Assembly: GCA_019054805.1 (NCBI GenBank)
Contig: JAHQIY010000001.1
Span: 7,950,501 to 8,014,500 of the forward strand
Direction of reading: 5' to 3'
From: Brachionus manjavacas
Taxonomy: Eukaryota > Rotifera > Eurotatoria > Ploima > Brachionidae
Length of the DNA stretch: 64,000 bases
The notes under the pieces: model-generated
Told to the model about the DNA's origin: nothing
Databases searched by the model: none
The model's input: only the letters and a program-made list of their open reading frames with translations
Translations under genes and position numbers: made by a program
Shown here: piece after piece, positions 16,633 to 57,594 of the stretch
Layout of the letters: each line of letters begins with the position of its first letter
Numbering within the stretch: the first letter of the stretch is position 1

Positions 16633-18053
16633 ATGGGTCTTGCGGAGCCAAAGAAAAAAGTTAAATATTCGATCGACCCGAACGCACTTCATTGGGCTAA
16701 TAGTAATTTTCTTCATATTCAGATTCATTAATTTTATTAATTAGTTTTTCAGATGAGGACAAATTTGGCAAGCGCTTAATGGAAAAAATGGGCTGGCAGA
16801 AAGGCAAAGGCCTGGGAGCCAACGAAAGTGGCATGACCGAGAACATAAAAGTCAAATTCAAATCTGATACCAAAGGCATAGGCTTCAAAAAAGAATACGA
16901 CCACGTTTGGCTAGATCATCAAGACGAGTTTGAAAATTTACTCAGTAGTCTTTCACAAAATAATGGTAATGGCAAAACCGAAAAAGTGGAAGAAGTAAAT
17001 TCTTTGGAAGAACGCTCTAGAAAATCAAGAAAACTGCACTACCAAAAATTTGCCAAATCTAAAGATCTATCAAGTATCACAGCAAATGATTTAAATTGCA
17101 TTCTTGGAACTAAGAAACGAAAATTAAAATCCTCAGAAGAGTCTAACAAACCCTCTAATTCTGAAACTGAAGATGCGGAAGCGTTCAGGCCTTCTTTCAG
17201 CCAAGTAAACAGCGATAAAGCTAAAAATGAACTGGAGAATAAAGTAGAGGACGAATCTGGTCTGAAATTTAGCACTAATAAACTTTCTGTAAGCGATTAT
17301 TTCGCTAATAAAATGGCATCTAAACTTAACCTAATCAAAAATACCACAAATGGCTCTTGGAATGACTCGGACTCAAGAGAGTCAAATGAGGCCAAGATTT
17401 TGAATCAAGTTGAAGAGGAGAATTTCCCTAAAAAGAAGAAAAAAAGAAAAAACAAAGAAAAAGATGAATCAAGAATAGAACTAAAAAATGAGGATATGAA
17501 AAATTTGGGAAAAGATGAGAAAAATACGAATGAGTCGATTGAAATACCAGTTAATTTTGAATTTAAAGAAACCGAGGAACATGATTCTGATGCTAAGAAG
17601 AAAAAGAAAAAAAACAAGGAATTGGTTGAGTCTGAAGGGTTTCGCATGTCAGTGAAAAGAGAACAAATAATTTTAGCTGTTGATGAGGATTCAGACAAAA
17701 GGAAAAATGAACAAGCTGATAACAAACATTCTAAGAGTTCAGTGACTGAGGCTGAACTGAGTGAAAATATTCCAAAAAAGAAGAAAAAAAAATCCAAGGA
17801 AAAAGAAGAAAATGTAAGTTTAAATGAAGAAAGCAATGGAAAATCAAATGATTTAGATTCATTAGTAAAAGCTTCATTTAAAGGTTCAAACTTATTGAGC
17901 ATTTATGGCTATTCGGCATATTATATCAACTCAAATTTGGAAGAAGTAATTAACGAAAAAGTTAAACGACTTAGCAGAAAACGATATTTGATGAATAAAA
18001 AAATAGAAATTGATGCCGAATATTATAAAATGAGCAAAAAAATGAATGTTTAA
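16633..18053 (+). CDS. pinx1: PINX1-like G-patch protein, two exons
   Basis: Nucleolar G-patch protein of the PINX1/Pxr1 family; known members act in rRNA/snoRNA processing as cofactors of the DEAH helicase Prp43 and, in vertebrates, inhibit telomerase. Exon 1 is 16633-16702 and exon 2 is 16753-18053, giving 456 residues. The N-terminus (MGLAEPKKKVKYSIDPNALH) and the G-patch (about residues 24-75: FGKRLMEKMGWQKGKGLG, ENIKVKF, GIGFK) match PINX1 closely. The rest is a long charged tail with three poly-Lys clusters (KKKKKRKNKEKD, KKKKKKNK, KKKKKKSKEKE), likely nucleolar localisation signals. The final 60 residues are helical and basic. It starts only about 210 bp after the ADAMTS-like stop on the same strand. 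AATAAA lies at 18054-18059, immediately after the stop. The antisense Ser/Phe-rich frame is a shadow. Confidence 0.9.
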
Positions 18054-20063: not shown

Positions 20064-23000
20064 ATGAGACTTACCGAAAGAGAAATTGATTGTTTATTAA
20101 TTCATAACGCCGGATTTTTGGCTCAAAAAAGACTCTCCAGAGGAATACATTTAAACTATCCGGAATCAATCGCTTTAATATCAGCCCAAGTATAGCCTTA
20201 TCAGGCGTTTTGTTTACAATTCTATTTGTCAAAAAATATTTAGATCTCAGAATTTGCTCGAGATGGACAATCTTGCGAAGAAGTTACAGAAAAAGCTAAG
20301 CAAATTATTGGGCGCAAAATGGTTCAAAGTGGCGTAAGCAAAATGTTAAGAGAGCTTTCTGTTGCAGTTACATTTTCCGAGGGTCTAAAAAATGTCAGTG
20401 TTATATTTAAAAATTTAGTTAATAAAATAATCTTTTTGATAAAGGTATTTATCAAAGATCCTATTTGTACCGAATATGGAAACATTGAGCTTGCTTTATA
20501 CGGTAGTTACTTACCCATTCCGAATACTTTCAATCCTGAGTATAAAAATGAAACAGATATTCAAATGAAAGATGCAAATGGAGACTTAAGTGCAGAAGAA
20601 ATGCATCCTGGTCAAGTTATTCCATTTAAGTCTGATAATTCACCAAAAGAAACATTGGACGAAGGCGAAATCGATGAAAATCAAAGCATGAATAATGACG
20701 ATGAAATTCTTAGTGATTTCATTGAGATCAACAAAGACAAAGGACAGGTGGCATTACTGAGTGTCACGAATCCTAGCAATGAAATAATTAAAGTATAACA
20801 TTTTTGTAATTAAAATCAATTAAACTTTTTGAAAAAGATTGGAAGTCACTTTAATTTGATTGAAGCAAACAAAGCATTACAATTTGACAGAAGTCTTGCT
20901 TTCGGAAAAAGATTGGTGAGGATTTAAATTTTTGATTACTTTTAATTTTAAATAAAATTTTGAAAAGAATATACCATCTGGTGACTGGATCGAATTTGAA
21001 CCGAAGAGCACAAAAATTGTTCCTATTATAAGAATCTCTGGTTTAAAGTAAAATATTAAAATTTCTAAAATTTATACCCGAGTAAATATTTTTTAGAGTT
21101 ATAAAAGGTGGAAATTACTTGGTCGATGGTAAAATAAATGATGATTTACTCAAGAAGACTCTAAAAAAATTGAATAAAAAATCATTTGCTAATAAGCATC
21201 AAGAGGTATTTTTAAGATTAAAACTTGAAAAGATAGTAAATTTTATCAAACAAATAATCGTCTAGGTTTTACGAAATATCATTTACGACTGCTAATTATT
21301 AAATTTATTTTATTGAAGTAATAATGTTTTTAGTCATTATTCATGTTTTAATTAACTAAATTATTTTATTAAAAGAATTTTCTTTTATCAATAATTAAAC
21401 ATCTATCGATTTTCATGATTGATAAAAGAAAATTTAGGATATTTTTAGTAATTGAAATTAAATTTTTCTTTTAAATTTTTAAAAAAAATTTTTTATTTAC
21501 TTTTGGGATAAACCCGAGCATCATCTGAATGGCAACTGCCTTCGTTTGAACCCTCTTACTTGCATTTCAATTTTTTTAAATTAGAAAAAAGAATAAAAAT
21601 ATAAAAATAAAGACTTTTAGCTTTCTCATCAATTGTATTGAGTTTAAAAGTTTTGTGTATTGTAGGAATAGATGTTTTATTGGGAAAAATTTGATGATTT
21701 TAAGGAACATGTAGTTACATCCAGATTTACCAAATGGGGTTTGAAACAGAGTTTTGATTCCAGCTTAATACCTTTTAATTAATTGAGCAAGCTGATAAAA
21801 GATTTCAAAGTCTCATAGTCGAAAAGACTTTTAAATCTTCAATGAAATTTAAATGAAAAATTTATGAAATCTATTTTCTAAGGAATAAAATCATTAATAT
21901 AATTTTTTAATTTTCTTTCCTTTCTCATATATAATGTATTTCAATTTGTTCATGGGACTTAAACTTTTATTTAATAAATAAAAAAAAATAAATTGATCAT
22001 ATTATATTTCGATGAAATCGTTACACTTTAGAACTATATGAATTAATGACTATCAATTTTTTGATAAATTTATAATAAAAAATCAGTATTTTGTAGTTTT
22101 GCTGAATAAAAAATGTGGCCTCTATTTTTTTCTTATATTGAATTTTTAGGAAATAAAAATAAATGAAGAAAATCAGTTGATGATAGAAAAATACTCAAAA
22201 ATACCTAGAGAAATTTACATAAAAAAATATGGACCAACAAGAGGCGACAAAGTATCCTCGAAAATTTAATGATTAATTTTTTTGCTAAAATGAATTATGT
22301 TTAGGTAAAATTGGCAGATACTAATTTAGTTATTGAAATAGAAAAAGATTTCACAATTTATGGAGATGAACTAACTTTCGGAATTGGAAAAGTATTAAAA
22401 TTATACCAAAAATGTTTGTTAGAGTTGTTTTAAATATTTTAAAAGAATTTAAGAGAAGGTCTAGGACAAAGTGTAAGCATGAGAAATGATGTTGCTTTGG
22501 ATACTGTAATCACCAATGTAGTAGTTATTGATAGCGTGTCAGGCATTTTCAAAGCAGACATTGGAATAAAAGATGGAATGATTCATGGAGTTGGAAAAGC
22601 TGGTAATCCTCACACAATGGACATAACTGCTGGTATGATTGTTGGCGCAGGAACTGATATTATCTGTGGGGAAGGACTTATTGTTACTGCTGGAGCGATC
22701 GATGTTGGATCTTCTTTTTTTCAATCAAAATCTAGCTTATTATCTGCACTAGGTTCTGGAATAACTACCATTTTTGGTATGGAAATTTATTTAAAACTAA
22801 AAATAAAATAAAATATTTTTCTCAAGGTGGAGGAACAGGCTCATTTGAGAGTTCGTCAACAAACTGTACTCCAGGTCCGAATAATATTAAATACATGATT
22901 CAAAGTACTGATGAGCTTCCTCTAAATTTTGGATTTTACGCGAAAGCAAACAGTTCATCGTCGAAATCAAACGAAACTTCTTCATTCGATTTTCCAAAAG

Positions 23001-24417
23001 AAATTGAAGACCAATTGGTTTCGGGCGCAATGGGTCTGAGATTGAGTGAGTATTGGGGGGCGACACCTGCCGCTATTGATTCGTGTCTTAGAGTCGCTGA
23101 TTTTCATGACGTCCTAGCCATATTGGACATTGACACCCTTCACGAGACTTATGGAAATGATTATCTCATTAGTTTGATAAAAAATAGAGTCGCTGGAATC
23201 GCTTTTAATTCTAGTCTTTTTAAATCTGATTTCATAAATGAAATCTTAACTCAAGTAAACATGATTGGAATATCTGCTTTTAATGAATCAGATAATTATG
23301 AATTAGAGAAATACCTTCATGATCTAGGTATAATCAGCATGGTGTCGTCGTCATCGTTTTCTTCAAATAACCGATCAAAAGTAATCAAATGAGATAAAAT
23401 TTTTATTCGAAAATTTGGTATAGATGAGTCCGATTAACTTCATTTTTGGCATGTATCCGAGGATACATAAAATATATATCTGAGGATGCATCAAAATGTA
23501 TTCTCGGATACAAAATATGTATTTTGTGAATCAAAAATATACAAATTGTTTATTTTATGTATCCTCGGATACATGCCAAAAATGAAGTTAATCGGACTCA
23601 TCTATACCGAAAATTTTGAAAATTTTTATTTAGACAATGATTGAAAATTTGATTAACAAAACCTGGCAAGTTGCTAGTACAATGAAAAGAATGGAAAAAA
23701 TTGAATCTAGAAATGATAATCAGAGAGTGAAACGTTACTTAGCCAAGTATACCATTAATCCGGCTGTATTTTGTGGTTGCTCACATGCTGTAGGAAGCAT
23801 TGAAGTAAGCAAAATGGCCGATTTGGTTCTATGGCGACCAGAATTTTTTGCCACCAGACCAGAAATTGTAATCAAAGGAGGACAAATAGTTTCTTCTGAA
23901 TTAAATAGTTTTGAAAGAACAAATCAAATATTGGGTGTATGTGGAAAAAGTCCCTGTGCTAATTCAGTTGTTTTTATATCAAAGGTAAACTTTTATTTTA
24001 TAATAAAAAATATAATCGTTGATATTTTTGAAAGGCTTCGTATGAAATCGGAGCAACGAATACTTATGGAATTTGTAAGCATGTTGAACCGATAAGAGAT
24101 TGCCGCAGTCTGAATCGAATTCAAAATATGTCTCCAGCAAATTTTTGTCCAAGAATTAGCTGTAAGTGAATTTAAATTTTTATTAAATTCTATACGATAA
24201 TTTAAAAAAAAAAAGCTTTAATAAAAAAATATTCAAAATCTTAAACTAATTTATTTAAAATTTAGATTCTAGTACTCATGCTAAAGGAATTTTAAATTAT
24301 ATTGAGCATGAAACGCAGCAAAGTAAACAACTTTTACCCCTTAGACCAGAGGTTAAATCAACCATGGAAAATATAAAAATCAGTCAATTACTCAGTCAGA
24401 GATTTTACCTGTTTTAG
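20064..24417 (+). CDS. Urease-like protein (gamma-beta-alpha fusion) lacking the nickel site, 13 exons
   Basis: Exons: 20064-20189, 20244-20393, 20445-20792, 20838-20915, 20968-21047, 21097-21205, 22150-22251, 22305-22391, 22446-22776, 22827-23380, 23634-23984, 24035-24161, 24266-24417. All are GT-AG and in phase, giving 864 residues, like single-chain plant urease (about 840). Gamma part 1-100 ([20 protein letters not shown]), beta about 115-290 ([21 protein letters not shown]), alpha from about 298 ([60 protein letters not shown]), ending QRFYLF. Urease would hydrolyse urea with two Ni ions, but here the ligands are gone: DxHxHF is DVGSSF (446-451), GLKLHEDWG is GLRLSEYWG (540-548), LHTDTLNE is LDIDTLHE (570-577), SSDSQ is SSSSF (644-648), and the HTEGAGGGHAPD and MVCHHL segments are absent. 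AATAAA is at 24455. A catalytically dead but intact pseudoenzyme is the best reading. Confidence 0.9.
23417..23608. mobile_element. MITE with 58-bp perfect inverted ends in urease-like intron 10
   Basis: Arms 23417-23474 and 23551-23608 are exact reverse complements (start GGTATAGATGAGTCCGATTA). An exact 8-bp direct repeat GAAAATTT flanks it at 23409-23416 and 23609-23616. The element is 192 bp and contains several GGATACAT/ATGTATCC palindromes. The perfect arms imply a recent insertion. The 8-bp duplication suggests hAT-like mobilisation. Confidence 0.85.
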
Positions 24418-26402
24418 ATTGACTTTTACTTTCAAAAATATTCTTGTATATTTGAATAAATGTTTAGTATAAATATAATTTTATTTCATTTTTAATTCCA
24501 AATTCATTTTAAATGTTGTATGAAGTCAAAAACAAATACAATATACAGTATGAATGCCAACAGTCAAGTTAAAATAATGACTTAAATTTGACAAGAAATA
24601 AATTGATTAGCAAAAAACGCAGAAAAATTTCCTAACAAATGATTGAGAAAATTTTATTAGAGGTATTTAAGAAATATTTCAATTTTTTTTTAAATAAAAA
24701 TAAATCTTGAATCAGGGATAATTTAATACTTGAATTCATAGTATAAAATATTGACTTTGTTATCGGTGTTAATTCCCATTTTAAAAATTTTACTATAATT
24801 TATGTGATTTGTGTGATATGTGAGTGATTTGGATCTTTATTATATTTTTATTTATAGCTTGACTTTTAATAATATTTAAGAATATGCCCCTTTTCTTAAT
24901 TTTTTATAAGAAATTGTTACAAAAAAACTCGATCACTATCCAAAGCTAACTTAGTATACTTTTATTAATTTTTTTTTTATGTGGCAGCTTTTTTCTCATT
25001 TATATTTAAATTTCGAATTGTTTTAATTAATTACAAGGAAAAGAAATAGATTATTAAAAAATTAAAATTAATTGGAATAAAATTTATTATATTACTTATT
25101 AATTTTTGAAGACTTAATCTCGTTATTTTTTTTAACTTTCGTAGACTTAGTTATGCCTAAACTGGAGAAATTTCATTGTTTAATCAAAAAATTTATAAAT
25201 TAGAACTGTATGATATTTAGCCTTAAATAAAATATAAATTTCTTCGCAAATTATGTGATTTCATTTATTTCACAAAAATTAGAACTTCGAATCATATTTT
25301 ATTATAAGATAAGAATTAAATGAACTAAAAATTTATGTTCTTTGAAATTAAAAATATATTTTAGTAAAAAAATAATCCATTTTTTAATTGTTAATTAGAA
25401 AATACTGTGTCAATAGAGGGCAGTGTGGCATAATATAGAAAGACAAAATATAGACAAAAAACATCAAAAAAAAATTACGAAAAAAAATGCAGAAAGACAA
25501 AATATCGAATTAAAAAAAAAGAAAATTATACAATGATTAAATAGTCTAATTATTTTTTTTTCAATTTTTTTCTTCACCAATTAGTAAATAAATAGAATAA
25601 ATAAAAATTCTCACTTTTATAATATGTCACTAATAATAAAATTGTCAAATTAGTCTCATGTTTGTATTTTTTTGGTTTAAATTGTTTATTTTTAAGCGTA
25701 ATTTAAACATTAGCTTTTTGATTTAAAGTTTTAGCCAAAGTCTCTATTTTTTTCTATATTTTGTCTTTCTATATTTTAAAAATAATTCTACATTTCGTTT
25801 TTCTATTTTTTTGAAAAACGAAATGCCTACCCAATAGAGCCACTCTTTTTATTTATATAAAGAATTTTCATTTTAATAAATTTTGATAAACTTTTCATTT
25901 GCATTATTTGATTTTAAAAAAAAATTTAAAAATTGTGAATTTTTGAATAAAAAATAAAATTTTAAATCTAAACAGCTTTTTGTAAAAATGTATCACCTGA
26001 TACAAATTTTTTATCGCCTAAATTTAACTGCTGAAAAAACTCTGTAAGTCTGCAAAGCACTAACTGTATTAGAAATTTATTAAAATTGAATTTCATTGTT
26101 ATTACAGAGACTAAATTGGATAATTATTCAAAAAAGAGATTACGATTTTTCTGCTAAAATCTTATTTTTTATGTAGAAAATTAATAAAAAAAAAGATTAT
26201 ACAATATTCCAAATATCATTTAATAAAAATTTCCGGAATCCCGGAATCTATAACGATCAATCAATAATTTTTTAGATTAGAAAAAGTTAATTTGTTTAAT
26301 TAATTTTGCTTTTGCGAAAAGAATTATGCGCAAAAAATTAATTTAATTCATAAAAATTTTTTTATAGCTTGTAGTTTAAAAAAATTTAAAAAATTTTAAA
26401 GA
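24418..26402. other. Intergenic; small inverted repeat at 25434-25773
   Basis: No gene seen. TATAGAAAGACAAAATATAG at 25434-25453 is matched in reverse complement at 25754-25773, with another partial copy near 25488. Outside them, AATAGAGGGCAGTGTGGCAT (left) and a CAATAGAGCCACTC-like piece (right) may be decayed termini of a foldback element of about 430 bp. Confidence 0.4.
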
Positions 26403-29054
26403 ATGGTTTATGCTGAAGCAAAACGAATAATGATTGCTTATGAAAATAAGCAAGGATCGATTCAATCACTTATTGCCCAGAGTAACAGTCAAGTATTTTT
26501 AGAATTTAAAGTTTATTCTTCACTTTTGAGTTAATTAAATCAAAAAGCATAAAAATTCACTAACATGTCTAATAATGAAAACCATGAGTTACAAAAAGCT
26601 TTTAAACAAGATAATAAAAAAGTCAAAAATGCTTGAAAACGAAAAGTTTCTTGGTGATAAACTAGCTCAACTATTAGTCTATGATGTTTTGTTTGGAATG
26701 GGCGTAAGAGGGAAGTTTAAAGTATTAATTTTTGTGTTTATTTTTTGCCTAAGTTTTAATAAACTTCTGAAATTAGAGTGCTGTAAAACGAAATTATCAA
26801 AGTCTAATTGAAGCATGTGATCATTATATGAAAAAATACCAGGTTGATAAGCGTGAAAATCTTCTCAAAATTTTCGACGAAAAACAGTTTTATTCGAATA
26901 ATTCTTCGATAAAACCGAAATATATTTATATAAATCAACTTAAACTAAAAAAGAAAGAAATTTTAAACATACTAAGCGAAGATTCGTTTCAAATGGTCGA
27001 CTATGACAGAAAAAGTGAAAATTTTACAAAATCAATTGAAGAATATAAACATTTGATTGAATCATTAAAAGAAAATGAATTTATAAAAGATAATCATGTA
27101 AAAAATTTGATCATATTTAAACATGATTCGGTAATAAATAAAAATTATAATCTTTTTGCTGAGGGACATTTATTGCAAATTGATAAATCAAGTTGTTTGG
27201 TTCCGCTTGCTCTAAATCCCGAAAAAGATAGTCATGTAATTGATGGCGCCAGTGCTCCAGTAAGTGAATACTCATTTCCTGATGAAAATTTGAAATTAAA
27301 TTTTTAGATTATTATTTATTAAATTCATGCTTAAGTAATATTCAGAACTATTTAGAAACAGTATTTTCATATTGTCCAATTATTCGAATACATTAGTTGA
27401 AAAAGACAGGATTCCAGTCATTTAGTCAGTAAATTTTTAATATGAGTGTAGCTTGAGTTCAAGACAAATTTTACACCCGCCAAACACTAAAATGTTTGGA
27501 ATGTGTATTTTTTTTTGATTGTATCTTATTAATTAAGTAAAAAATATAAAATATCTGAAATTTTTTCTTTAAATTTTATTTTTTCTTGGAATTTTTTTTT
27601 AAGTTTCTGGCAGACTAAATTTAAAGATTGGTCACATATTATGTGACCAATAACATAAATAAGCTATTTATTTGAAAATTATAAAATTAATATTTAAAAT
27701 CGATTAAAAAATTCTAGTGGATTTAAAAATAAGTCGATTTATTAAAATCGATTTTCAAGTTATTTTCCAATGATTATTTTATTTTTAAAACGCAAATAGA
27801 AATTATTTTATCTTAAAACATTTTAGTTTAAAAAATTGAGAAATATTTCTAGAATATTTTTACAAAAATTTTAAACCATTAACTGTTTATTTATGTGACA
27901 AAGAAATATTTTATTTGACTAATTATTTCTATTTTTTTTATCTCATATTTGTTGGTGACATTATTTGTAATCAGTTGGTCACATATTGCAATAGACTCTT
28001 GAAATTAAGTAGAAAAGAATAATTTTGTAGGTTTTCTCTAATAGCTACAAACTAGTTAATAATGTTGAATAATGCTGATTCAACATTATTCCATAAAATT
28101 CTCAAGTCAAATAAAAGTGAAAAATCCCTGCAAATTGTGATAAATATTCATAGTAAGAATTTAAATTTATCACATGATTTCATTGTTTTTTCAGAAATTG
28201 CAGATTTTGAACCAAAATAATTTTCAAAAATTTGAGTGATGAGTTCGAGTAGCCTTTTTTAAGTTCAAATGTATGTAAATGTCACATAAATAATTTATTA
28301 AGAAAAATAGGAATGTAATAGGATTTTTTTTTAATTTTTAAAAATTAAATTTTTATAAAGGGTAACAAAACAATCTTGATATCAAACATTTTAAAAAATA
28401 CTGGGTAATTTTTTAAACAAGCTCTTAAAGAAGTTATTTTTAAATATTTTCAAAAGACTGATTCATGCATTCGACATCGATGAAACAAGAGTAAAACTGA
28501 TGCAAAACAATCTTAAACAACACCATGTAACAAATGTCAGATTAAAATGCATGGATTTTTTACAAACCGAAGTTCATAAATATGATAGAGTGAGTCATAT
28601 AATGTTAGACGTTCCTTGTAGTGGAAGTGGTATGACCAATCGTTTGAAATTCGGAGATACGGACCTGGAAAATGTTAAAGATGATAAAAGACTGTGGAAA
28701 TTAGAAGCTTTACAACGAAGGATGCTACTTCATGCAATGTCATTTCAGAATGTTACGCGAATTGTTTACTCTACCTGCTCAATACATCAAGAGGAAAATG
28801 AAAATGTAATACGGTATGCTCTTAAAAACTGTGACGAAAGATTTAAGCTTGTAAATTTGTTTGCTGACAAATGGAACTATGGTCGAGGATTATGTACAGA
28901 CGAAAAGGATGCGAATGATTTGCACTTAGATTATTGTGTTCGGACTAGCTTTGATAGTAACTTTACTAATGGTTTTTTTATAGCTTGCTTTGAATTAAAC
29001 AGAAATAATGATTTAGAGGCTAGCCCGGAAGAAAGTCAATTAATTGGATATTAA
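26403..29054 (+). CDS. nsun5: NSUN5-type rRNA cytosine-C5 methyltransferase, five exons
   Basis: SAM-dependent RNA m5C methyltransferase; the NSUN5/Rcm1 family methylates one cytosine of large-subunit rRNA in the nucleolus. Exons: 26403-26492, 26548-26721, 26777-27259, 28361-28404, 28457-29054. All phases agree, giving 462 residues, close to the family's 430-490. The N-terminal helical region (KFLGDKLAQLLVYDVLFGMGVRGKFK) matches NSUN5. The pre-catalytic part includes LLQIDKSSCLVPLALNPEKDS. Motif I is VIDGASAPGNKT, split over an intron (the usual C of DxCAAPG is S). Then AFDID, motif IV DVPCSGSGM and motif VI IVYSTCSIHQEENE carry both active-site cysteines, and the C-terminus has NGFFIACFE. 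The 44-nt exon 4 is easily missed, and without it the SAM loop is lost. The 1.1-kb intron 3 holds TGGTCACAT repeats. AATAAA is at 29082. Confidence 0.92.
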
Positions 29055-30768
29055 ATTGATAAATTCTCGCTTTTTATTTTGAATAAAATATTTTCAAAAT
29101 TCAATTATTTTTATCTAAAATATCTTACCGTAATTTGGACAATCTTTTTTTTGTGATATGGAATTTGGAAGCAATTTTATTCAAAATTTATTTAAAAAAA
29201 AATTAAAAAATCATTTTACTTTTCTAAATTTTAATGCAATCTTTCGAACTAAACGATCAAATTCTTTTTTAATTGAAAAATTGTTTTTTTTTTAAACTGT
29301 TCAAGTCCAATATAAAGCTTTTTTAAAAATTAAACAAAAACATGATTATTTTTTCCAAAAAATAATTTGATCATTTATCTCTTGAAATGTAACAGTTTTA
29401 CTAGGAAACAATGTTAGAATTTCCTTTTTTTAAAAAAGGTTAAAAAGGTGAATGATTTCAATAGGAATTTTAGTATTTTGAACTATTTGTTTTTCTCAAT
29501 TAAAAGATTTCTAAATGTTATTAAATATGAAACTTAAAATTAAGATAATACATAATTACAAAATAAAACAGATTGAAAATATAAATTCTATTGTATTAAT
29601 TTTAAATATTATATGGGAAGTTTTTTTTTCTGTTTAACTTTTTTCATTAACAATCAGACAAGATATATTAAAAACGTCTCTTTTAACAAATTTAAATCTC
29701 TTGATAAATTTTACTTTGAAAAACGATTAAATGTTTTACAAAGTAAAATGTCTTTACTACACTTTTTGGTTTTTTTCAAAATTTAGGAACAAATTTTTTG
29801 AGAGACTTTTTTATTATGTAAAACATATAACCGGAAAAATTATCAAGTGGTTTAAATTTTTTAAAAGAGATATTTTGAATTTTATCTTGTCCGATTTTTG
29901 AATAATAAAACCAATTATTTTTTGGACTTTTTTACTTTCAGGTTTAATGAAAAAACTTGCGTTATTAAAAAATAAAGTCAAATGAAAAATCCTTTGAAGC
30001 ATTTAGAAGAAAAATGTTAAATTTCTTAACTCTTTTTAAAAATAAATGCACTAGTTTGTGTTTTTTTTGACTTACAAAAAATTTTGTTTTTTAAAAACTC
30101 ACTTGGTCTATAAAATTTATGATTTAATTGAAATAAAATATCTATTTCTTTTCTAAAAATCTAATATCACAAAAAATTATTTATTTTGCATGAAAATTTC
30201 AATCCACTAATAAGTTTTATTTTTGATTCCGAAAAAAAATATAAATGATAAATAATAATCGAAAGAAACTGCAACCAGAAAGCTTGGGCGAAAGATTAGT
30301 TCTTCAAAAGAAAACAAATCAGATTATGATTTTTATACGATTTGAGATTACTAAAATTCAAAAAGAATTTTTATATAAAAATAACATGAAGTGATTTTTG
30401 ATGATAAAAAGAGAGTAAGCCATTAAAAACGTCTCAATCCTTATCATCGTTAAAATTTTTTTTTGTTTTTAGAGCCTTGAATAGTTTATATTTGTATTCG
30501 AAAAACCTTAAATACAGATCATTTAATTGAGACAAATAATTCAAGTGATTTAAACTAATCTCAAAAGACTAATTTTAAAAAGGTTACTTATAGCAATCAT
30601 ATTGCCAAATATTCATACTAATTACCTTTTAAAATTTTAATGAATGATTAAAACTGACTCTAAATCTTTGAAATTAAAAAATCCCTCTTTTCGAACATTA
30701 TTTAAAGCCGATTTGTTCACTAGACTTTCATATCAAAAATTTGAAACAAAACAAAAGCGAAAAATAAA
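29055..30768. other. Intergenic, no gene seen
   Basis: About 1.7 kb of A+T-rich sequence with long T and A runs. The only open frames are short, antisense and made of Phe/Ile/Lys/Asn, as expected from composition. The promoter of the chitin-binding gene must lie near the right end, but nothing specific stands out. Confidence 0.4.
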
Positions 30769-32365
30769 ATGTACTCTCAAATAATAATTTTTTTGGCAAT
30801 TTTTTCCATAAGAACTCATTCGTATTTGATCGAAAGTCCCATTGGCGAAGAGGAAGTCTGCAATTTCGAAGATCGCAGACTAGCAGAATCGGTCAGACTC
30901 ATAAGGTCCAAATACAATTGCCGAGTTTATTACGTATGTGCGTTTTACAAACAATATTCTCTTATTTGTGCCGAAGGCCTTTACTTCGACCAAGACTCCA
31001 ACTCCTGCAATTACCAGGAAATAGTTAAATGCAAGTTACCATCAGATGATTACACATTTCAAGAAACTTCGAATGTATCTTTACTAGTTGAAGAGAATCA
31101 AGAAACTTCAAACAATAGCAACCTAACCCAGGACGACTCCTTTGATCCCAATCTTAATCAAACTAATTTTATAATGAATGCTACCGAAGAGCTCATTTTT
31201 TCAACATATTCGAGTGAAATGATATCTAATTTAACAGAGACTGATTCCATGAATGATAGCTTCAATGAAACATTTTCTTCAATTGCCTCCCTAAATACTA
31301 GCTCGACCCAGATGGAACCTACGACTACTTCTTCTATGTCAATTCAGACATTTGCGGATGTAAATAATTGGTGGTACGGTCCAAGTGATTGTATAGAAGG
31401 CTTTGAACACAAATTAGCTCACAAAGAAAATTGTGCTTTGTTCTATGAATGCACAAAAGAAGGTGATAAGATTCAAAAAGCGTGCCCATATCCTCTTCAA
31501 TACGATGAAATGCTTAATGAGTGTCGATTTTATGATTTAATTGAATGTGGTACTCGAAAGCAAGCCAAAGATTTATGTAAATTTTTGTAAAAATAAAAAT
31601 TTTCTCTAAATTTTTAATACTTTTAAAAAAGGTGATTATCAAATAAATGCTTCTCTTCCAAGTTCAATTCCTTGCGATAAGTATCCAAGTTGTAAAGGTC
31701 TAAGTGATGGTCTTTATCCGTCAAACGACTGCAAACATTACTATCAATGCAAAGATGAGAGAACGCTAAGGATTTACAGTTGCCCAAAAGACCAAAAAAC
31801 TGGAGCTCAATTAAAATTTAATTATTTGACTAAGAAATGTGATTTTCTTGAGAATGTGTCATTTAATTGTGGGGGTTACGCTATTCCGATTGATATCTAC
31901 AGTAATTTTACCATTAGGCCTTTTAATAACTTTAAAATAACATTAAAATTTTTAGCTAATAAAATGGTTTGTCCAAGCAAACAAGCAAAGTCAGATGAAC
32001 AGCCCAGCTTGGAAACTCGTGATGTATATTTTTCTCATCCGAGTGAATGTCATTTGTACGTGACATGCGACATGCATGGAAACATGTCTATTTTAGAATG
32101 CTTTAACGGTACCCATTTTTCGCCATATTATCAAAGCTGTGTGCATCCATCAGTGGTAAATTGTAAAAAGTATCCTATGGTCAGAGCTCAAGCAATTTAT
32201 TCGCTTAAAAACCTTTTTATGGAGGCGAAAATAAAATCAGGACTAATAAATCAGACATCTGAAATGTCACCTGAATCAGACTTAATAGAAACAACACCAA
32301 TGGTTGAATTTAATACAACTATGGTTATGGAACCAAGCAATAATACTAATTCGACAATTTTCTAA
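30769..32365 (+). CDS. Secreted protein with four peritrophin-A (CBM14) chitin-binding domains, three exons
   Basis: A predicted extracellular chitin-binding protein of the peritrophin type, as found in gut linings, cuticles or eggshells. Exons: 30769-31576, 31632-31901, 31956-32365, giving 495 residues. Residues 1-18 form a signal peptide (hydrophobic IIIFLAIFSI). Four six-cysteine CBM14 units can be seen: residues about 31-84 (NCRVYYVCAFYKQ), 207-260 (NCALFYECTKEGDK), 285-355 (DCKHYYQCKDERT) and 365-430 (ECHLYVTCDMHGN), each with the aromatic-Tyr-x-C core. Between domains 1 and 2 lies a Ser/Thr/Asn-rich linker with many N-x-S/T sites, likely mucin-like, and the C-terminal tail is also Thr/Asn-rich. 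The 54-nt intron 2 has no stop and keeps frame if unspliced, which would add 18 residues. AATAAA is at 32440. Confidence 0.88.
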
Positions 32366-49600: not shown

Positions 49601-50012
49601 ATCCGAAAACTTAAACTTAGCCAAAATTGAAAGATTTTGAATCAAAATAAATGAATCAAAAAATTGTTCATTTCAAAAAAAAACATTTTTTTTTATTGAA
49701 TCAAAAGACTGAATATAAAATTTAGACTAAATTACATTTATATTAAGCAAATTTTATCTTTAATCAAATTTATCAAAAAAGTCTACCTCTCATTAAAAAA
49801 ATAAGCTTTACTCATATAATTAATAACATTCGCTTTTTGACATTAACCATAAAGCTTAAAAAAACCTGGAAGCGGAATTCTCAGAGCTAATTTGAATTAC
49901 TTGAATAATTTGCTATCTTGTAATTTATTTAAAAAATTCTTTCATTTTGTTTTATTTAGATAACTTTTAAATAGATAAAACAAAAATGAGCTGCTAAATA
50001 ATTCAGACAAAT

Positions 50013-53000
50013 ATGTTGTTGTACACCAAGGTTCACAACATACATAAAAGCTTAATTTCTAATCTGTTTTTAATACTCATTTCAACGTTGCCTACTGCTT
50101 CCACCAGTCAATCAATTCATTCTTATCAAAAAAATACAACAAAATATTTAGACAGCTCGAAGCTAGAATTTTGTGAACAATGTGACATATTTATAGGAGG
50201 TCTGTTTCCTATACATGGTCCAAAGTATGCACGACATTCGAAAAAAACTCCTGATGATCAATTTAGGGGCAATTCTGAATCAATAAATTATTTTTCGACA
50301 ACGCCATCTTTGTCTGTGGATAGCTACATGCAGAGTGAGATCATTTGTGGCGAAATCAAAAAAGAACGCGGAATACAGCGTCTAGAGGCGATGCTTTTTG
50401 CTATCGATTTAATTAATAATAGCACAAATCTTTTGCCTAATTTAAAACTGGGTGCCCGTATTTATGACACCTGTGATCGTGACACCATCGCCATGGAAAA
50501 GTCTCTTAATTTTGTAAGTGACTATTTTTTGTTAAAAGAAGAGAACATTGCCAAAGATTTCACATGTTTGAGTAACAATCCTAGCTTGATGGATTTGGCA
50601 AACAATTTCAAACCAAAAAAGAACAAAGATGCTATTCACAAACGAAAAGTTGTTGGTGTAATCGGAGCAGCAAGTAGCAGTGTGTCCATTCAAGTAGCTA
50701 ATTTACTTAGATTGTTTCAAGTAAGTTTTCTTAATAGAAAAGAAAATTGTCTTAATAAATTTTCTCTTAGGTTCCTCAAATAAGCTATGCCTCTACAAGC
50801 CCCGAATTAAGCAACAAGGAAAGATTTCCTTTTTTTTCTCGCGTTCTCCCTTCCGATACGTTACAAGCAGAGGCGATGGCTAATCTTGTTCATTCTTTAA
50901 ATTGGAATTATATTGCCACTTTGAACGAGGAGGGAAATCTTGGCGGAATCGATTCTTTCATTTCAAATGCTAAATCCAAAAGTATGTCTTATGATTTGTT
51001 TAAAATGTTTTATTCTTTGTAAAATTTGAAAAGACATTTGTATATCTGGGTCTTATACTTTGTCTCAAACTGCCTCTGAAGATGATGTCAAAGCTATTCT
51101 AATGGAAATGTATGAGCAAAAAAATGCTCGAGGAGTTGTCGTGTTCCTACAGGATCATAATGTGAGGTAAAATTTTAATTGTAGTATATAAAACCTTTGA
51201 ATACTTATTAATACTTTTAGTAATTTAATTATTTTAAAATTAAAAAAAAGCTTTATTTAAAGAATATTTAAAAAATAATTTTTGTTAATTTTTTGATAAA
51301 TTTTGGAGAGATTAAATAAGAAAAATCAATAATTAAAAAATAAAAACTTCAAAATGCCACATTAATTTAAACACTACACAATACATAATCACGCTATTTA
51401 TTGAGAGTAGGATAAATAAAGCAAGAATGAATTAAAAGTTATAAAGAGGTTTTTTTCATTTTTAAAAAAAGATAAATTTTAAGCCAATTCTAAAATCATA
51501 AAAGTTGTTAAGAGAAATGAAAATCATCGTAAAAAGTTATTATTATTCAATTAAAAATTGATTTTAATAAAGTCATGTTTTAAACATAACTCAACAAATA
51601 GAAAAAAAATTTTTGATTTTTGCAGATTAAAATGAATAGCTGTTCCTGCAATAAATTTTAAAATTAAAGTTTAAAAATTCAATCTTTAAATTCACCTGAG
51701 AAATTACTTCTAATTTATTTCAAAAATAATAATTTGATTTGTTGCGTATTCATATTTTAGGTAAATCCTTGTTAAAAAATCCCCTAACGATCTTTGGAAT
51801 CTTTTGAATGAGTAAATTATAAACTTTAAATCTAATTAATTCGTCTTGATTTATTTTATGATTAAGATTTTTTAAAATAAACAAGAAAATCAATTAAAAA
51901 AAACATAAATTTTCTGAGCCACTAAAGAAACAAAATTGACTCAAAAGTTGTTAAATATTTTGGACACATTTTTTCACAAAAATTTACATAAAATGTTGAA
52001 AATTTAAATTAACGTAAATTTTTTTTTATAATGGTTAAATAACATGGATAGACAATGAGATCAAACTTTTAAAAAATAATTTTCCTTTCTTTACTTTTTG
52101 TACTTTTTCAAAATATTATTTTATTTGGCCCTGTTCCTTTTTATGCTTTCTGTACTTTTTGTTCTTTTTCAAAATATTATTTTATTTGGCCCTGTTAATT
52201 TTTGTACTCTTTCAGAATATTATTTTATTTGACCCCGTTTAAGTTTTAATAAAATGATTAAAATTATCATTTTATTAGGTTTAGGGATTCGGGTATGCTG
52301 AAGGTAAGAAAAATATTAGTTAAATATAAAATTTATATTTAAATATTGATTAATAAAATGTTTTTTTATTACCATTAAGAGCAAAAAGTACAAAAAGGAA
52401 CAGTGCAAAATAAATAAATTAGAAAAAGTACAAAAAGTACAAAAAGTAACAGGGCCAAATAAAATAATATTCTGAAAAAGTACAAAAAGTACAGAAAGTA
52501 CAAAAAATACAGAAAGGATTTTTAATTTTAAATATTTTCATTGTCTATACCTCTTAAAAAAAGTAAAAAAAGAGAAATTAAAAGGAAAAAAGTAATTTAA
52601 ATTTTCAACATTTTATGTAAATTTTTGTGAAAAAATATGTCCAATGTTGTTAAATGTCCTTTATCAATCATTTGTTTTTGCTATATATTATATAACGAAA
52701 GCTTTTTAAACTTTTAAATGGATTATGCTACACTTAATGTACTATTGACTGTTCGAATTTTTTATGTGACCTTAATATTTTTGGGCTGGTAAATTTTCTG
52801 ACCACTGGTCATTATTAATATTTTTCTGACTTGTTTTTAAAGGCTAGTTTTATGATCAAAAAACACTTTCTTAATATCTCGATCTGTAATTAAATTTTTG
52901 ATCATAAAATTTATCCTAAAATTTGGTATTGTTTTGATAAGAATTTTTTCTGTAATTTTTATGATAAAAAAAAAATCTCTTAAAAATAAAACCAATTGAA

Positions 53001-56000
53001 TCAACAACATTCTTAGTAAAATTTTACAAACATAGTAAAATGCGTGTAAAATTATTTATTTAAAATCAGTTAGAATGATAAATATATCACACTATTAATT
53101 TAATTAATTCAATAATAGATTAAAATTGTTTTAATAATAATAAAAATAATAATAAGCTACATCAGGAGACATGTGGAGCGAGACTAGACTTTTAATTTTT
53201 TTAAATAATTTAGATAAAAAAATCTAGAGAAAATTTTAAAATAAAATCTTGTTAGATTTTTTGTTGTCTACTACAAGTTTATTTTGAGTAAAAATTTTAT
53301 TTGTTCATATGATTAACTAATAAGTTGATTAGGATAACAAAAAAGAAATTAATTTACTTTTTTTGATTATATATACTCATAAATTATATAAAACTAATTT
53401 TTCATCTTATTTTACCAAGTTTAACACATAATTGACCCTTTTTAGCTTTACGGTTAGATTAGTAAATTTACGTAAAAAAGACAAAAAAGACAAATGTTGT
53501 AGCAGTACTGTATGCAATTTTTTTTAATAAAACAAAATAAAATGAATTTTGATTATTGATTAATTGATGAAAAATAACTTTTTGTTTTCACTAAAGGAAA
53601 CTTCTCAAGCTGGTAAAGGATTTGAATATGACCAGACATTTTCTGTGGATAGCAAGTGACAGTTGGGGTACCAAAATAGAATCGATCAGAAATAACAATT
53701 TAGCAGCAGAGGGAGCTATTACTTTTGCTCCAAAATCTTTTATAATAAAAGAATTCAGTGATTATTTCCAAAAATTGAGACCAGGCAAAAACATAAGAAA
53801 TCCTTGGTTTGAAGAGTTTTGGCAAGATGAATTCAAATGCCGCATTGAAAATCCAATATTTCAGTCAAATCGTCGCTCATCTTACACCAAATCATGTACT
53901 GGACATGAAACCCTGAATATTACTCAAGATGGTTTTATTCATTTTGTTATTGATAGTGTTTTTGCGATTGCTCACGCTATACAAGATTTAATATTTACTC
54001 ATTGTTCGAAACTAAATTTTAATGACTTAATAAATTGTCAGCACAAGATCATTTTCAAAGGACCAGACTTTCTCAATGCGATCAGAAATGTTAATTTTAA
54101 TTCAATAACTGGACGTCAAGTCGAGTTTCTCAAAGATAAAGACAATTCAGGAGATGGCCTAGCACCTTTTGAAGTATTTCAGTATCAAAAAGATGACAAG
54201 GGAATATTTGGTTACAAAAAAATAACCGAGTGGGAAAAAAACAAGCCATTTGTTTTGGATAAATCGCTGCTAAAGTGGAATAGCGATAGTGACAAAATAC
54301 CACGATCAATTTGTAAAGAAGAATGCGGCATTGGCGAGGTTAAACAAGGAGATCACTGTTGCTGGGTATGTGTGAAATGCGAAGAGAATCAATATGTTGA
54401 TATTAACAAATGTATCAAATGTCCGCAAGGATTTGGCCCAAATGAAAATAAAACAAGTTGTCTAAAATTGACCATTGAGTATATGACATTCAATAGTCCA
54501 TTTACATTGATACCAATCATATTCTCTACACTTGGGATAATATTAACAATTTATATTATCTACATATTCATAAGGTATATTAAATTTGCCATAAAATCAA
54601 TTTTTTTAATTTTTATTTCTTAGATATAATGAAACTCCGATCATAAAAGCATCTGGAAGAGAACTTTGCTATGTCTTATTAGCTGGTATTTTAGCAAGTT
54701 ATCTAGTCACATTTTTTCTAGGTAAATTTTTTTTAATAACGATTGTTAATGATTTTTTAAACTTTGACTTTTTCCTAAGATTAATTTGAATATAAGTTAG
54801 TTACATCAATTATTATTACAATCAATTATTATTTTTTTTCAATTTACGCAAATTCTGGCACTAATTATTAAGAAATTAAATTTAAAAAAAAATAAGAATA
54901 GTACAAATTTAAAATCAGAGTTGATTAAGAGATTTTTGGTTAACTTTAAATAAAATTTAATAAATGATCGAAAAAAGAATATTTGCTATTTTTAAATAAA
55001 AAAAATTGATCAAAACAGTCAAAATTTAAAATTCTCTTATTAATAATTTCTTTAAAATCATTTTTATTGATTTTTTAAAATCTAAAAAGATTAGCTTCAC
55101 AGGGTTCAAAAATTCCAAAATTTGTTATTTGATTTAGCAGTTCACAATGTTTGTTTAAGAAAATTGAATATGATAAATTGAATATTTTTTCTAATCAAAT
55201 TTTGAATAATCTGAGTTATACGTAAAATTAAGTAAAAATAGTAAATATTTTTTTTTTTTTACAATTATTTGACCATCTACAAAAAATTACCAAAAATCCT
55301 TGTGGATAAGAATTGAATTGATTCTGTATTAATAATTAAAAAAAATAAAAAGCAACTGAACTTATAATTTTTTAATTTTTTTTTAACATAGGCAGTTTCA
55401 TCATTTTTGAAACAAAATTTTAAAATTTAAAATTCATGCTCTTTGATTTTTTGATTAAATTTGGAACTCTAGCAAAATTAAATATTATTTTATTATTTTT
55501 TTTTTTATTTCATAATAAAGTTTGTTTAAGGCTAAATTTATTTTTGATTCTAGTCACGAAACCAAATTTTGCCTCCTGTCTTCTTCTACGTTTTGGTTTC
55601 AGCACCAGCTTAACCATATGTTTATCAGCTCTATTCACGAAAACAAATCGATTGTCCAGAATATTCAACAATAGCATAAAACAGGTGAGACAAGCAAGCT
55701 ATGTAAGCCCGAAATCTCAGCTGGTTATATGTGGTTCAATAATTTCAGTTCAAGTTGTAGCTATATTCATTTGGATTTCAATTAGGTAAAGATAGGTTAA
55801 ATTCAAATTAAAGATTCTTAATTTTTGTTTAGTCCACCTGGCACTAGCTTTGACTATGACGACCCAAAGAGAGTGATTCTCCAGTGTAAAACTCAAAATA
55901 CTCATCTAGCCATTTCATTTTTGTATAATTTTTTTCTTGTTATTCTTTGTACAATTTATGCCATTAAAACTCGGAAAATTCCGGAAAATTTTAACGAAGC

Positions 56001-57594
56001 TCGTTTCATCGGATTCACCATGTACTCTATTTGCATAATTTGGGTTGCTTTTATACCAATTTATTTCGGTACAACTGCAGCGGCTGGTACCAGCAAATCT
56101 CCAAAAAATAACTACAAAGTATTTTATTTGAATTTAATTTTTTTTAAATAAACTTTTTTGTCAAGATACAACTAACCACAATGGCTATGTGTTTGAGTTT
56201 GAGTGCAACAGTGATTCTTTTTTGCTTATTTTTGCCAAAAATTCGAGTGGTTGTTCTAAAGCCAAACAAAAATGTTCGTTCAAAATCAACATTAAACAAG
56301 TCAAGCTTTAAAAGTAACACTCAATATAAAAACTCGAAAGTAGTCTTGCAATCTAAGTGTACTGGAAATTTTGAAAAATCCCTTACTGTTGCCACTGTAG
56401 CTAGCTCTAACAGTACCGCAAGTTCTCCTGGTAATAATTTTGAACGCCCGGTGTAATTTTTTACGGAGAGGCCTTATTATGATTTTCTGGAATTTTGAAT
56501 TTTAAGAAAAAAATTATTCTAAAAATTAAACTTGTAATAACTTTTATTTATTAAGACTAAAATTAATCTGATGATGTTCTATCTTTTGATGCTTTTTGCA
56601 AAAGAAGCTTGAGTCTTAAAAAATAATAGTTGTTTCCATTTTTATTTTTTTAATTAAAATACAAAATTCCTTCTTCTCAGAATAATTTTTGATTTTAAAA
56701 TTAAAGAAATTATTGATATTCAATAACTAAAAATTATGTATTAAAAAAATCAAAATCCGGGCTTTGGCAGTTTAAAAAAAAAATTGTAATAGTTCCAAAA
56801 GTTACTAAAATTTTTTTGATAAATAAAATTTTTAAAATTCTTATATAACCTTAGGTTTTCAATCAAATAAGAAAGAAAAAAATGAAAATGAAGCAAAAGC
56901 CGGTGGAAATCAATCAAAGCTTTCAAATGCGTCAGTAAAAACTTGCAACATATCATACTCATTAGAGCCGGAAAATGAGGCTACCAGGAACGAAGCTAAT
57001 TTAGTAGATTTGAATTATTCCGAACAATTATCTGGTCAAGAAATTGACAGGAGAAATGAAAGTGCGATAGAGTTTGGGGTAAAAAATGTCGTAGATACAT
57101 TAGGGGATTTTTCATTAAAGATTCTGACCAACCAAATAAATGATATAAATAATAATTTAATAAAAATAAATGATGATGTGAATAGCATGGGATCAGACGA
57201 GATCGATTTTCCAGACTATGACTATATACTTACCTCGAGAACACCCGAATCCAAACATCAAAAAATTTCATCAAAATCGATTGATAAAAACGATTCCTCA
57301 ATGCGTCAAACTGAAAATATTTCCAAAGAGTCAAAAAATTTTCCAAAAAAAATTAAACATCAAGACATACCTAACGAAATAGTGCTTAAATATAGAAAAA
57401 ATGATGTTGACAAAATGAATGATCTAACGATTTCATCTTTTTCTATTCCAAGTGATGTTTCGCTTGAAAATCTAAAAAGCAATGACAAAAAAAGTGTTCG
57501 TGGTAAAATAAACATGAAAAAAGAGGATGATTTAATATTCGATAGTTCGGCTGATGCTTATGATTTTCAAAGCCTTAAAATTACATTCGTTTAA
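50013..57594 (+). CDS. Metabotropic glutamate receptor-like class C GPCR, nine exons
   Basis: G-protein-coupled receptor in the plasma membrane. Exons: 50013-50720, 50771-50981, 51034-51166, 53597-54574, 54624-54721, 55554-55785, 55833-56118, 56166-56430, 56873-57594. All phases agree, giving 1210 residues. A signal anchor lies near 14-32. The Venus-flytrap domain includes [36 protein letters not shown] and [11 protein letters not shown] cysteine-rich domain spans about 593-641 and seven membrane segments follow, with family signatures [22 protein letters not shown] and [17 protein letters not shown]. The phosphate-binding Ser/Thr block is kept, but the usual GNYG tyrosine is Leu (EEGNLGG), so ligand preference may differ. 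A 50-residue insert precedes CGEI. The 3' exon joins in phase from CCT G|GTAATA; if unspliced, the protein ends at 56456. The spliced tail ends ITFV, a possible PDZ ligand. AATAAA is at 57623. Confidence 0.9.
51957..52646. mobile_element. Foldback (MULE-like) element in intron 3 of the glutamate receptor
   Basis: Inverted ends of about 50 bp (TTTTTTCACAAAAATTTACA ... at left; its complement at 52600-52640) are flanked by the exact 9-bp direct repeat TTGTTAAAT (51948-51956 and 52647-52655). Inside, both arms carry multiple copies of a subrepeat built from TACTTTTTGTACTTTTTC and ATTATTTTATTTGGCCCTGT, in opposite orientations. A 9-bp duplication with long ends suggests Mutator-type mobilisation. 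Confidence 0.8.

Follow-up and report, generated by a model that had tools for sequence, protein, structure and literature searches.

Urease is the textbook nickel enzyme. Its two nickel ions are held by four histidines, a carbamylated lysine and an aspartate, and a flap carries the catalytic Cys-His pair. In the single-chain ureases of eukaryotes, such as those of jack bean (PDB 3la4) and of Priapulus and Lingula, whose ligands are intact, gamma, beta and alpha regions follow one another in one polypeptide. The same one-chain order is found in a gene of the rotifer Brachionus manjavacas, at 20064-24417 (+) of a 64,000-nucleotide stretch (assembly GCA_019054805.1, contig JAHQIY010000001.1, positions 7,950,501 to 8,014,500 of the forward strand), which as a whole is called the window below. 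The encoded protein resembles single-chain ureases over nearly its full length (~40% identity), in its urease Pfam domains and in its predicted fold, but it lacks all six ligands and the flap Cys-His. Its flap stretch is 39 residues shorter (29 in bdelloids), and neither a second urease nor UreD, UreF or UreG was detected in the rotifer genome. We infer that it is quite probably a pseudourease shared across rotifers, which would have been retained as a scaffold or binding protein without catalysis.

CRMPs, or dihydropyrimidinase-related proteins, offer a parallel, having kept an amidohydrolase barrel and lost most metal ligands, as in the rotifer protein. According to PMC2999344, CRMP1 is without metal and amidohydrolytic activity and has Tyr75, Gln165, Lys254 and Gly332 where rat imidase has His69, Lys159, His248 and Asp326; the title of one of its references places CRMPs in semaphorin signalling. 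CRMP1 keeps two His positions and the rotifer protein none, making the rotifer loss the more complete. The parent family is dihydropyrimidinase in one case and urease in the other, and the likeness is one of working mode only; by this analogy, CRMP1 is the closest precedent. Moonlighting plant and bacterial ureases retain their active site, whereas that of the rotifer protein is gone. That ureases of plants and bacteria can act without urea hydrolysis is described in PMC8268090, PMC3317107 and PMC3332383. Using Pfam and MeBiPred labels, PMC12274423 reports that ‘nickel ureases/hydrogenases’ are conserved across acanthocephalans and rotifers; the examined parts of the paper contain no residue-level check. 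The paper treats such proteins as conserved nickel binders; the rotifer urease-type proteins considered here, which may be the same ones or others, are without every nickel ligand. No paper on a rotifer or animal pseudourease was found by title or abstract start in the open-licence literature; as far as that search goes, an amidohydrolase pseudoenzyme is new for the urease family.

The rotifer protein is a urease by descent, in domain order and in predicted fold. Splicing at 12 GT-AG sites joins 13 exons into 2595 bases, or 864 codons without an internal stop, which reproduces the gene structure of the original prediction, made from the letters of the window. The spliced protein aligns with jack bean urease in three stretches (E = 4.5e-169) that cover the gamma, beta and alpha regions the prediction had recognised, and all 53 of the solved sequences that it matches are ureases. 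The window itself gives two Pfam Urease_alpha matches above the curated cut-off. Its best database match, the Brachionus plicatilis ‘urease isoform X1’ (P0001), is 95% identical and carries Urease_gamma, Urease_beta, Urease_alpha and Amidohydro_1 above cut-off, and the same four domains are matched in gamma-beta-alpha order in eight of eight rotifer relatives. AlphaFold models of two relatives retain the urease fold. Because Urease_alpha exceeds its cut-off, the jack bean match is so strong and none of the rotifer homologues found has the ligands, a urease-like gene stripped of its nickel site is not a chance observation. The urease-specific domains and the closest relatives, themselves ureases, likewise indicate that it is not a CRMP by descent.

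Every residue that defines the nickel site has been replaced or lost. The jack bean ligands, His407, His409, Lys490, His519, His545 and Asp633, were compared with the window protein, and its residues 448, 450, 542, 544, 571 and 646 align with jack bean 407, 409, 490, 492, 519 and 633. The replacements originally proposed (Gly448, Ser450, Arg542, Ser544, Asp571 and Ser646) are exact to the residue number. Opposite His545, one alignment has a gap and the other has Phe. The flap Cys-His stretch, also claimed to be lost, is indeed eroded: Cys592 faces Ser or a gap depending on the alignment, and both His593 and Arg609 face gaps in both. Across the nine near full-length rotifer rows, the His593 column is empty in both alignments, and position 592 is Ser in five monogonont-type rows in one alignment and a gap in the other, with a gap in bdelloids. 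The flap-bearing stretch is shortened in every rotifer row: between position 519 and the LHD motif, Priapulus and the Canavalia reference have 102 residues, the window protein has 63, P0002-P0004 have 56-58 and the four bdelloids have 73. None of the six ligands of the urease enzyme (EC 3.5.1.5), and no flap Cys-His, is found in the window protein or in P0001-P0008. Urea hydrolysis by the known mechanism may be regarded as excluded for practical purposes because ligand, carbamylated Lys and flap are absent and no maturation factor was detected; the protein is almost certainly not a urease enzyme and would neither bind nickel nor hydrolyse urea.

The near full-length set comprises the window protein and P0001-P0008: P0001 from B. 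plicatilis, P0002-P0004, which group with Brachionus in the tree, and P0005-P0008 from the bdelloids Adineta ricciae, Adineta vaga, Didymodactylos carnosus and Rotaria socialis (‘near’ because P0008 is missing a short segment where the alpha region begins). Each homologue search was evaluated on its best 120 matches. In the first, 111 of 121 rows, counting the window, carry the ligand set HHKHHD; the ten that deviate are the nine rotifer sequences and P0086, a Cannabis record with a single Ser, so that 111/112 non-rotifer rows in that alignment keep all six. A search aimed at shorter proteins returned 115 of 120 listed matches with all six ligands, and the other five are rotifer-like fragments (P0155, P0156, P0158, P0159 and P0161) whose ligands are gone wherever covered, P0158 and P0161 spanning only the first half of the set. 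No rotifer-named match with an intact site appears among the best 120 of each search; nor is an acanthocephalan named among the best 120 of each of three, where many matches are unnamed. All the rotifers in this sample carry a putative pseudourease.

The loss most likely predates the split between bdelloids and monogononts, because the nine rows form one clade (support 100/100), divided into bdelloids and monogonont-type rows, and share replacements. All nine have Arg in place of Lys490, Asp in place of His519 and Ser in place of Cys412, and Asp633 has become Ser or Thr. Held-out fragments agree where they cover the site (Arg at 490 in 5/5, Asp at 519 in 3/3, Ser at 412 in 5/5). Positions 407 (Gly/Cys/Ala), 409 (Ser/Cys/Asn/Tyr) and 492 (Ser/Asp) vary between and partly within both groups. 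A 100/100 branch separates rotifers and 19 rows taken as animals from seven taken as non-animal, several rows being unnamed. The urease tree is compatible with vertical descent. Horizontal transfer was considered and set aside, the rotifers lying on the animal side of this branch, yet the branch between rotifers and other animals is poorly supported (80/77), with long rotifer branches.

The genome searched spans 114 Mb in 61 contigs. A genome-wide Urease_alpha profile search found no second urease outside this locus, and a Priapulus urease query with intact ligands gave five genome matches, all inside it; the second, active urease whose presence was to be checked is thus not seen by either search. 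For the maturation genes the outcome is less complete: UreD, UreF and UreG models gave no genome match at E <= 0.001 in exon-by-exon searches, whose sensitivity for UreD and UreF is uncalibrated on animals. The cobW and ATP_bind_1 GTPase families were detected in the same genome, and UreD, UreF and UreG are likely missing from it. The cobW matches were rejected as UreG candidates; the UreG model itself had no genome match. One of them (L008) is a 469-residue frame, presumably CBWD/ZNG1-like. The other (L009; contig C40, ~204183-204710) adjoins intronless, bacterial-looking frames, three long frames lying side by side, and the other two are presumably aspartoacylase-like and dihydroorotase-like; this contig is probably bacterial contamination.

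Despite its catalytic losses, the protein is very probably under selection for some function, because the substitutions that separate it from B. plicatilis are conservative and tend to spare conserved sites. Within residues 1-830 the two Brachionus proteins differ at 40 positions with no gaps. The site test left out residues past 830, where P0001 diverges, and sites with too few rows; 33 of the 40 differences were scorable, 4 of them hitting the 274 sites that do not vary among the other seven rotifers and 29 the 454 variable ones (matched by 3/20000 permutations). The mean BLOSUM62 score of the 40 changes is 0.85; random missense changes average -0.24 to -0.38 under three mutation settings, and 0/20000 draws reach the observed mean under each. 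Bdelloid copies are 79-90% identical across genera. Neither mark of a pseudogene is found, the frame being undisrupted and the substitution pattern not neutral. Constraint may have been lost unevenly. Invariant sites, counted in seven of the nine rotifer rows against hand-chosen sets of seven active animal-type sequences, number 22 vs 51 of 75 in residues 541-646, 29 vs 45 of 101 in gamma, 31 vs 42 of 101 in beta, 56 vs 61 of 114 in the alpha N-terminal part, 36 vs 49 of 86 in residues 446-540, 40 vs 55 of 84 in residues 647-745 and 25 vs 26 of 94 in the C-terminal part. These counts are suggestive of a loss that is steepest around the old catalytic core.

Several observations weigh against a conserved pseudourease. 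The AlphaFold model of P0001 reaches moderate confidence (predicted local distance difference test, pLDDT, 69.4; predicted template modelling score, pTM, 0.74), with very low confidence in linker parts, and the alignments behind the fold predictions contained true ureases and so lean towards a urease fold. Scored against 24 active ureases, hand-picked from 111 for this test and for the comparison of fixed residues below, the avoidance of conserved sites is weaker (6/232 vs 28/523; 468/20000). Identity between bdelloids and monogononts is 0.47-0.52, against 0.67-0.74 among seven active animal-type sequences, so constraint is partly relaxed. The block test for the catalytic core is no more than suggestive: circular blocks as extreme number 42/704, or 14/659 with a second active set, for a region picked post hoc. 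Five of nine rotifer rows fail the composition check of the tree, and the homologues are protein records, among which broken copies in other rotifers would not appear.

A decaying pseudogene, still open by chance in this genome, would account for the loss of all catalytic residues and for a divergence exceeding that among active ureases. This reading is very improbable, given long open proteins in both rotifer subclasses (in protein records, where broken copies would go unlisted), recent substitutions that are conservative and off conserved sites, the similarity of the bdelloid copies, coding-type composition and apparent spliced transcripts in relatives. The latter are P0002-P0004, whose contigs of at most 2986, 2741 and 2848 bases encode 894, 875 and 863 residues; they look like spliced transcripts because they are too short for introns like those of the window gene, which points indirectly to expression, and we infer that their source code ‘lgn’ marks assembled sequencing runs. 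A gene-model or assembly artefact, with ligand-bearing exons missed or collapsed, could draw on the 944-base intron 6, which might conceal an exon, and on the differing C-terminal end of the B. plicatilis record. It is hardly credible, however, when the substituted sites fall within exons 9 and 10 between well-preserved urease motifs, when the same losses recur in separate records from bdelloids and other rotifers, and when the Priapulus query matches nothing beyond this locus. The same losses in relatives make spliced exons that restore the ligands, one of the outcomes that would have overturned the original prediction, very unlikely. As a candidate missed exon in intron 6, a short open stretch at ~21670-21785 was rejected, as it has no recognisable urease motif (the intron was read in part, in three frames); P0001 skips it. 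An active urease with unusual metal or ligands is scarcely more plausible: the known iron urease would use the same ligand set as the nickel enzyme, and no ligand is left in any of the nine near full-length sequences, nor was a maturation gene detected. The precedent for this idea is the iron-containing urease of Helicobacter mustelae (3qga).

In the main rival reading, the old active site was instead rebuilt as a new ligand-binding or metal-independent catalytic pocket, yielding a new enzyme or small-molecule sensor. Nine residues fixed in 9/9 rotifer rows and never seen in the 24 active ureases speak for this (Thr417, Ser454, Asp532, Arg542, Asp571, Val592, Cys704, His788 and Asp794, at jack bean 375, 412, 480, 490, 519, 540, 690, 783 and 789), and held-out fragments agree at the seven sites where they give coverage (window 417, 454, 532, 542, 571, 592 and 704). 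Jack bean sites 783 and 789 lie beyond the urease part of the fragments, the Lys and Glu of P0156 there belonging to a non-urease tail. Two residues near the pocket, Asp573 and Glu577, are also invariant in the eight rotifer relatives. Against a new pocket stand the variation among rotifers at 407, 409 and 492 and a flap stretch that is both short and weakly conserved, features not expected of a precise new active site. Such a pocket is unlikely, and equally doubtful is the wider proposition that rotifers as a phylum turned urease into a new protein class whose new ligand-binding, sensing or metal-free catalytic site, made up of the dismantled nickel pocket and these nine fixed residues, is important for rotifer physiology.

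Of a new enzyme and a scaffold or binding role, the second is the probable one and is favoured because parts outside the old catalytic core are conserved. In the ancestor of bdelloids and monogononts, the nickel centre of a single-chain eukaryotic urease would have been dismantled, with loss of His407, His409, His519, His545, Asp633 and the carbamylated Lys490 and a shortening of the flap stretch. The remaining polypeptide would then have been kept by purifying selection, its gamma-beta-alpha particle perhaps acting, like the CRMPs, as a scaffold or binding partner that has no catalytic part to play. The Arg542-Asp571 pair may form a salt bridge that replaces the metal bridge, a guess prompted by the fixation of both residues. 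The original prediction, that ureolysis was lost while selection kept the fold, is supported by ligand loss in relatives, conserved-site avoidance and the fold models, and is backed as well by the lack of a second urease and of detected nickel chaperones.

Table 1. Exons and former nickel-site codons of the urease-like gene (window coordinates)
Feature	Position	Strand	Evidence
Exons 1-2, gamma region, residues 1-92	20064-20189, 20244-20393	+	Splice model, jack bean urease alignment
Exon 3, gamma end, acidic linker and beta start, residues 93-208	20445-20792	+	Splice model
Exons 4-6, beta region, residues 209-297	20838-20915, 20968-21047, 21097-21205	+	Splice model, alignment
Exons 7-8, alpha region start, residues 298-360	22150-22251, 22305-22391	+	Splice model; exon 8 Urease_alpha match
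Exon 9, alpha region, residues 361-470, with Gly448 and Ser450	22446-22776	+	Splice model, Urease_alpha profile search, alignment
Exon 10, barrel core, residues 471-655, with shortened flap stretch	22827-23380	+	Splice model, alignments
Exons 11-12, barrel end and C-terminal part, residues 656-814	23634-23984, 24035-24161	+	Splice model, alignment
Exon 13, C-terminal end (...SQRFYLF) and stop TAG	24266-24417	+	Splice model; other ureases end similarly
Gly448 and Ser450 codons, former nickel-binding His407/His409	22707-22709, 22713-22715	+	Alignment
Arg542 (former carbamylated Lys490) and Ser544 (former His492) codons	23039-23047	+	Alignment
Asp571 codon, former His519	23126-23128	+	Alignment
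Ser646 codon, former Asp633	23351-23353	+	Alignment

The composition of the gene is of coding type, with guanine-cytosine fractions of 0.42/0.36/0.25 at codon positions 1-3 against 0.20 in introns. Eleven introns measure 45-253 bases and intron 6 (21206-22149) is the long one. The TAG stop lies at 24415-24417, and the acidic linker in exon 3, residues 119-190, holds 20 Asp or Glu against 5 Lys or Arg. Past about residue 830, P0001 carries a tail unlike urease, probably through mis-splicing or an alternative end; the window protein and other rotifer records end in FYLF, YFLF, YFIF or YFMF. Fragment P0158 has additional residues where introns 8 and 9 lie, and P0155 and P0156 enter their non-urease tails where intron 11 lies, which suggests that intron positions are conserved. 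Intron 2 (20394-20444; 51 bases) is open in frame, and its retention would insert 17 stop-free residues. Intron 10 contains a palindromic element (23414-23611) with 61-base arms that are 98% complementary; a 221-base query spanning it has 59 matching pieces genome-wide, its own locus included, and it looks like a member of a miniature inverted-repeat transposable element (MITE)-type repeat family. The neighbouring frames are animal-like and are presumably G-patch/PINX1-like (16707-18053), NSUN5-like (26400-29054), chitin-binding peritrophin-like (30745-32365) and class C receptor-like (49998-57594).

Several of these rotifer proteins are labelled ‘urease’ in databases, a label that invites wrong conclusions about rotifer urea use. 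If the pseudourease reading is true, the family would provide a clear natural case of an enzyme turned non-enzyme in bdelloids and monogononts, comparable to the CRMPs, in animals small enough for gene knock-down tests. It would also reveal which parts of the urease chain selection can keep apart from catalysis.

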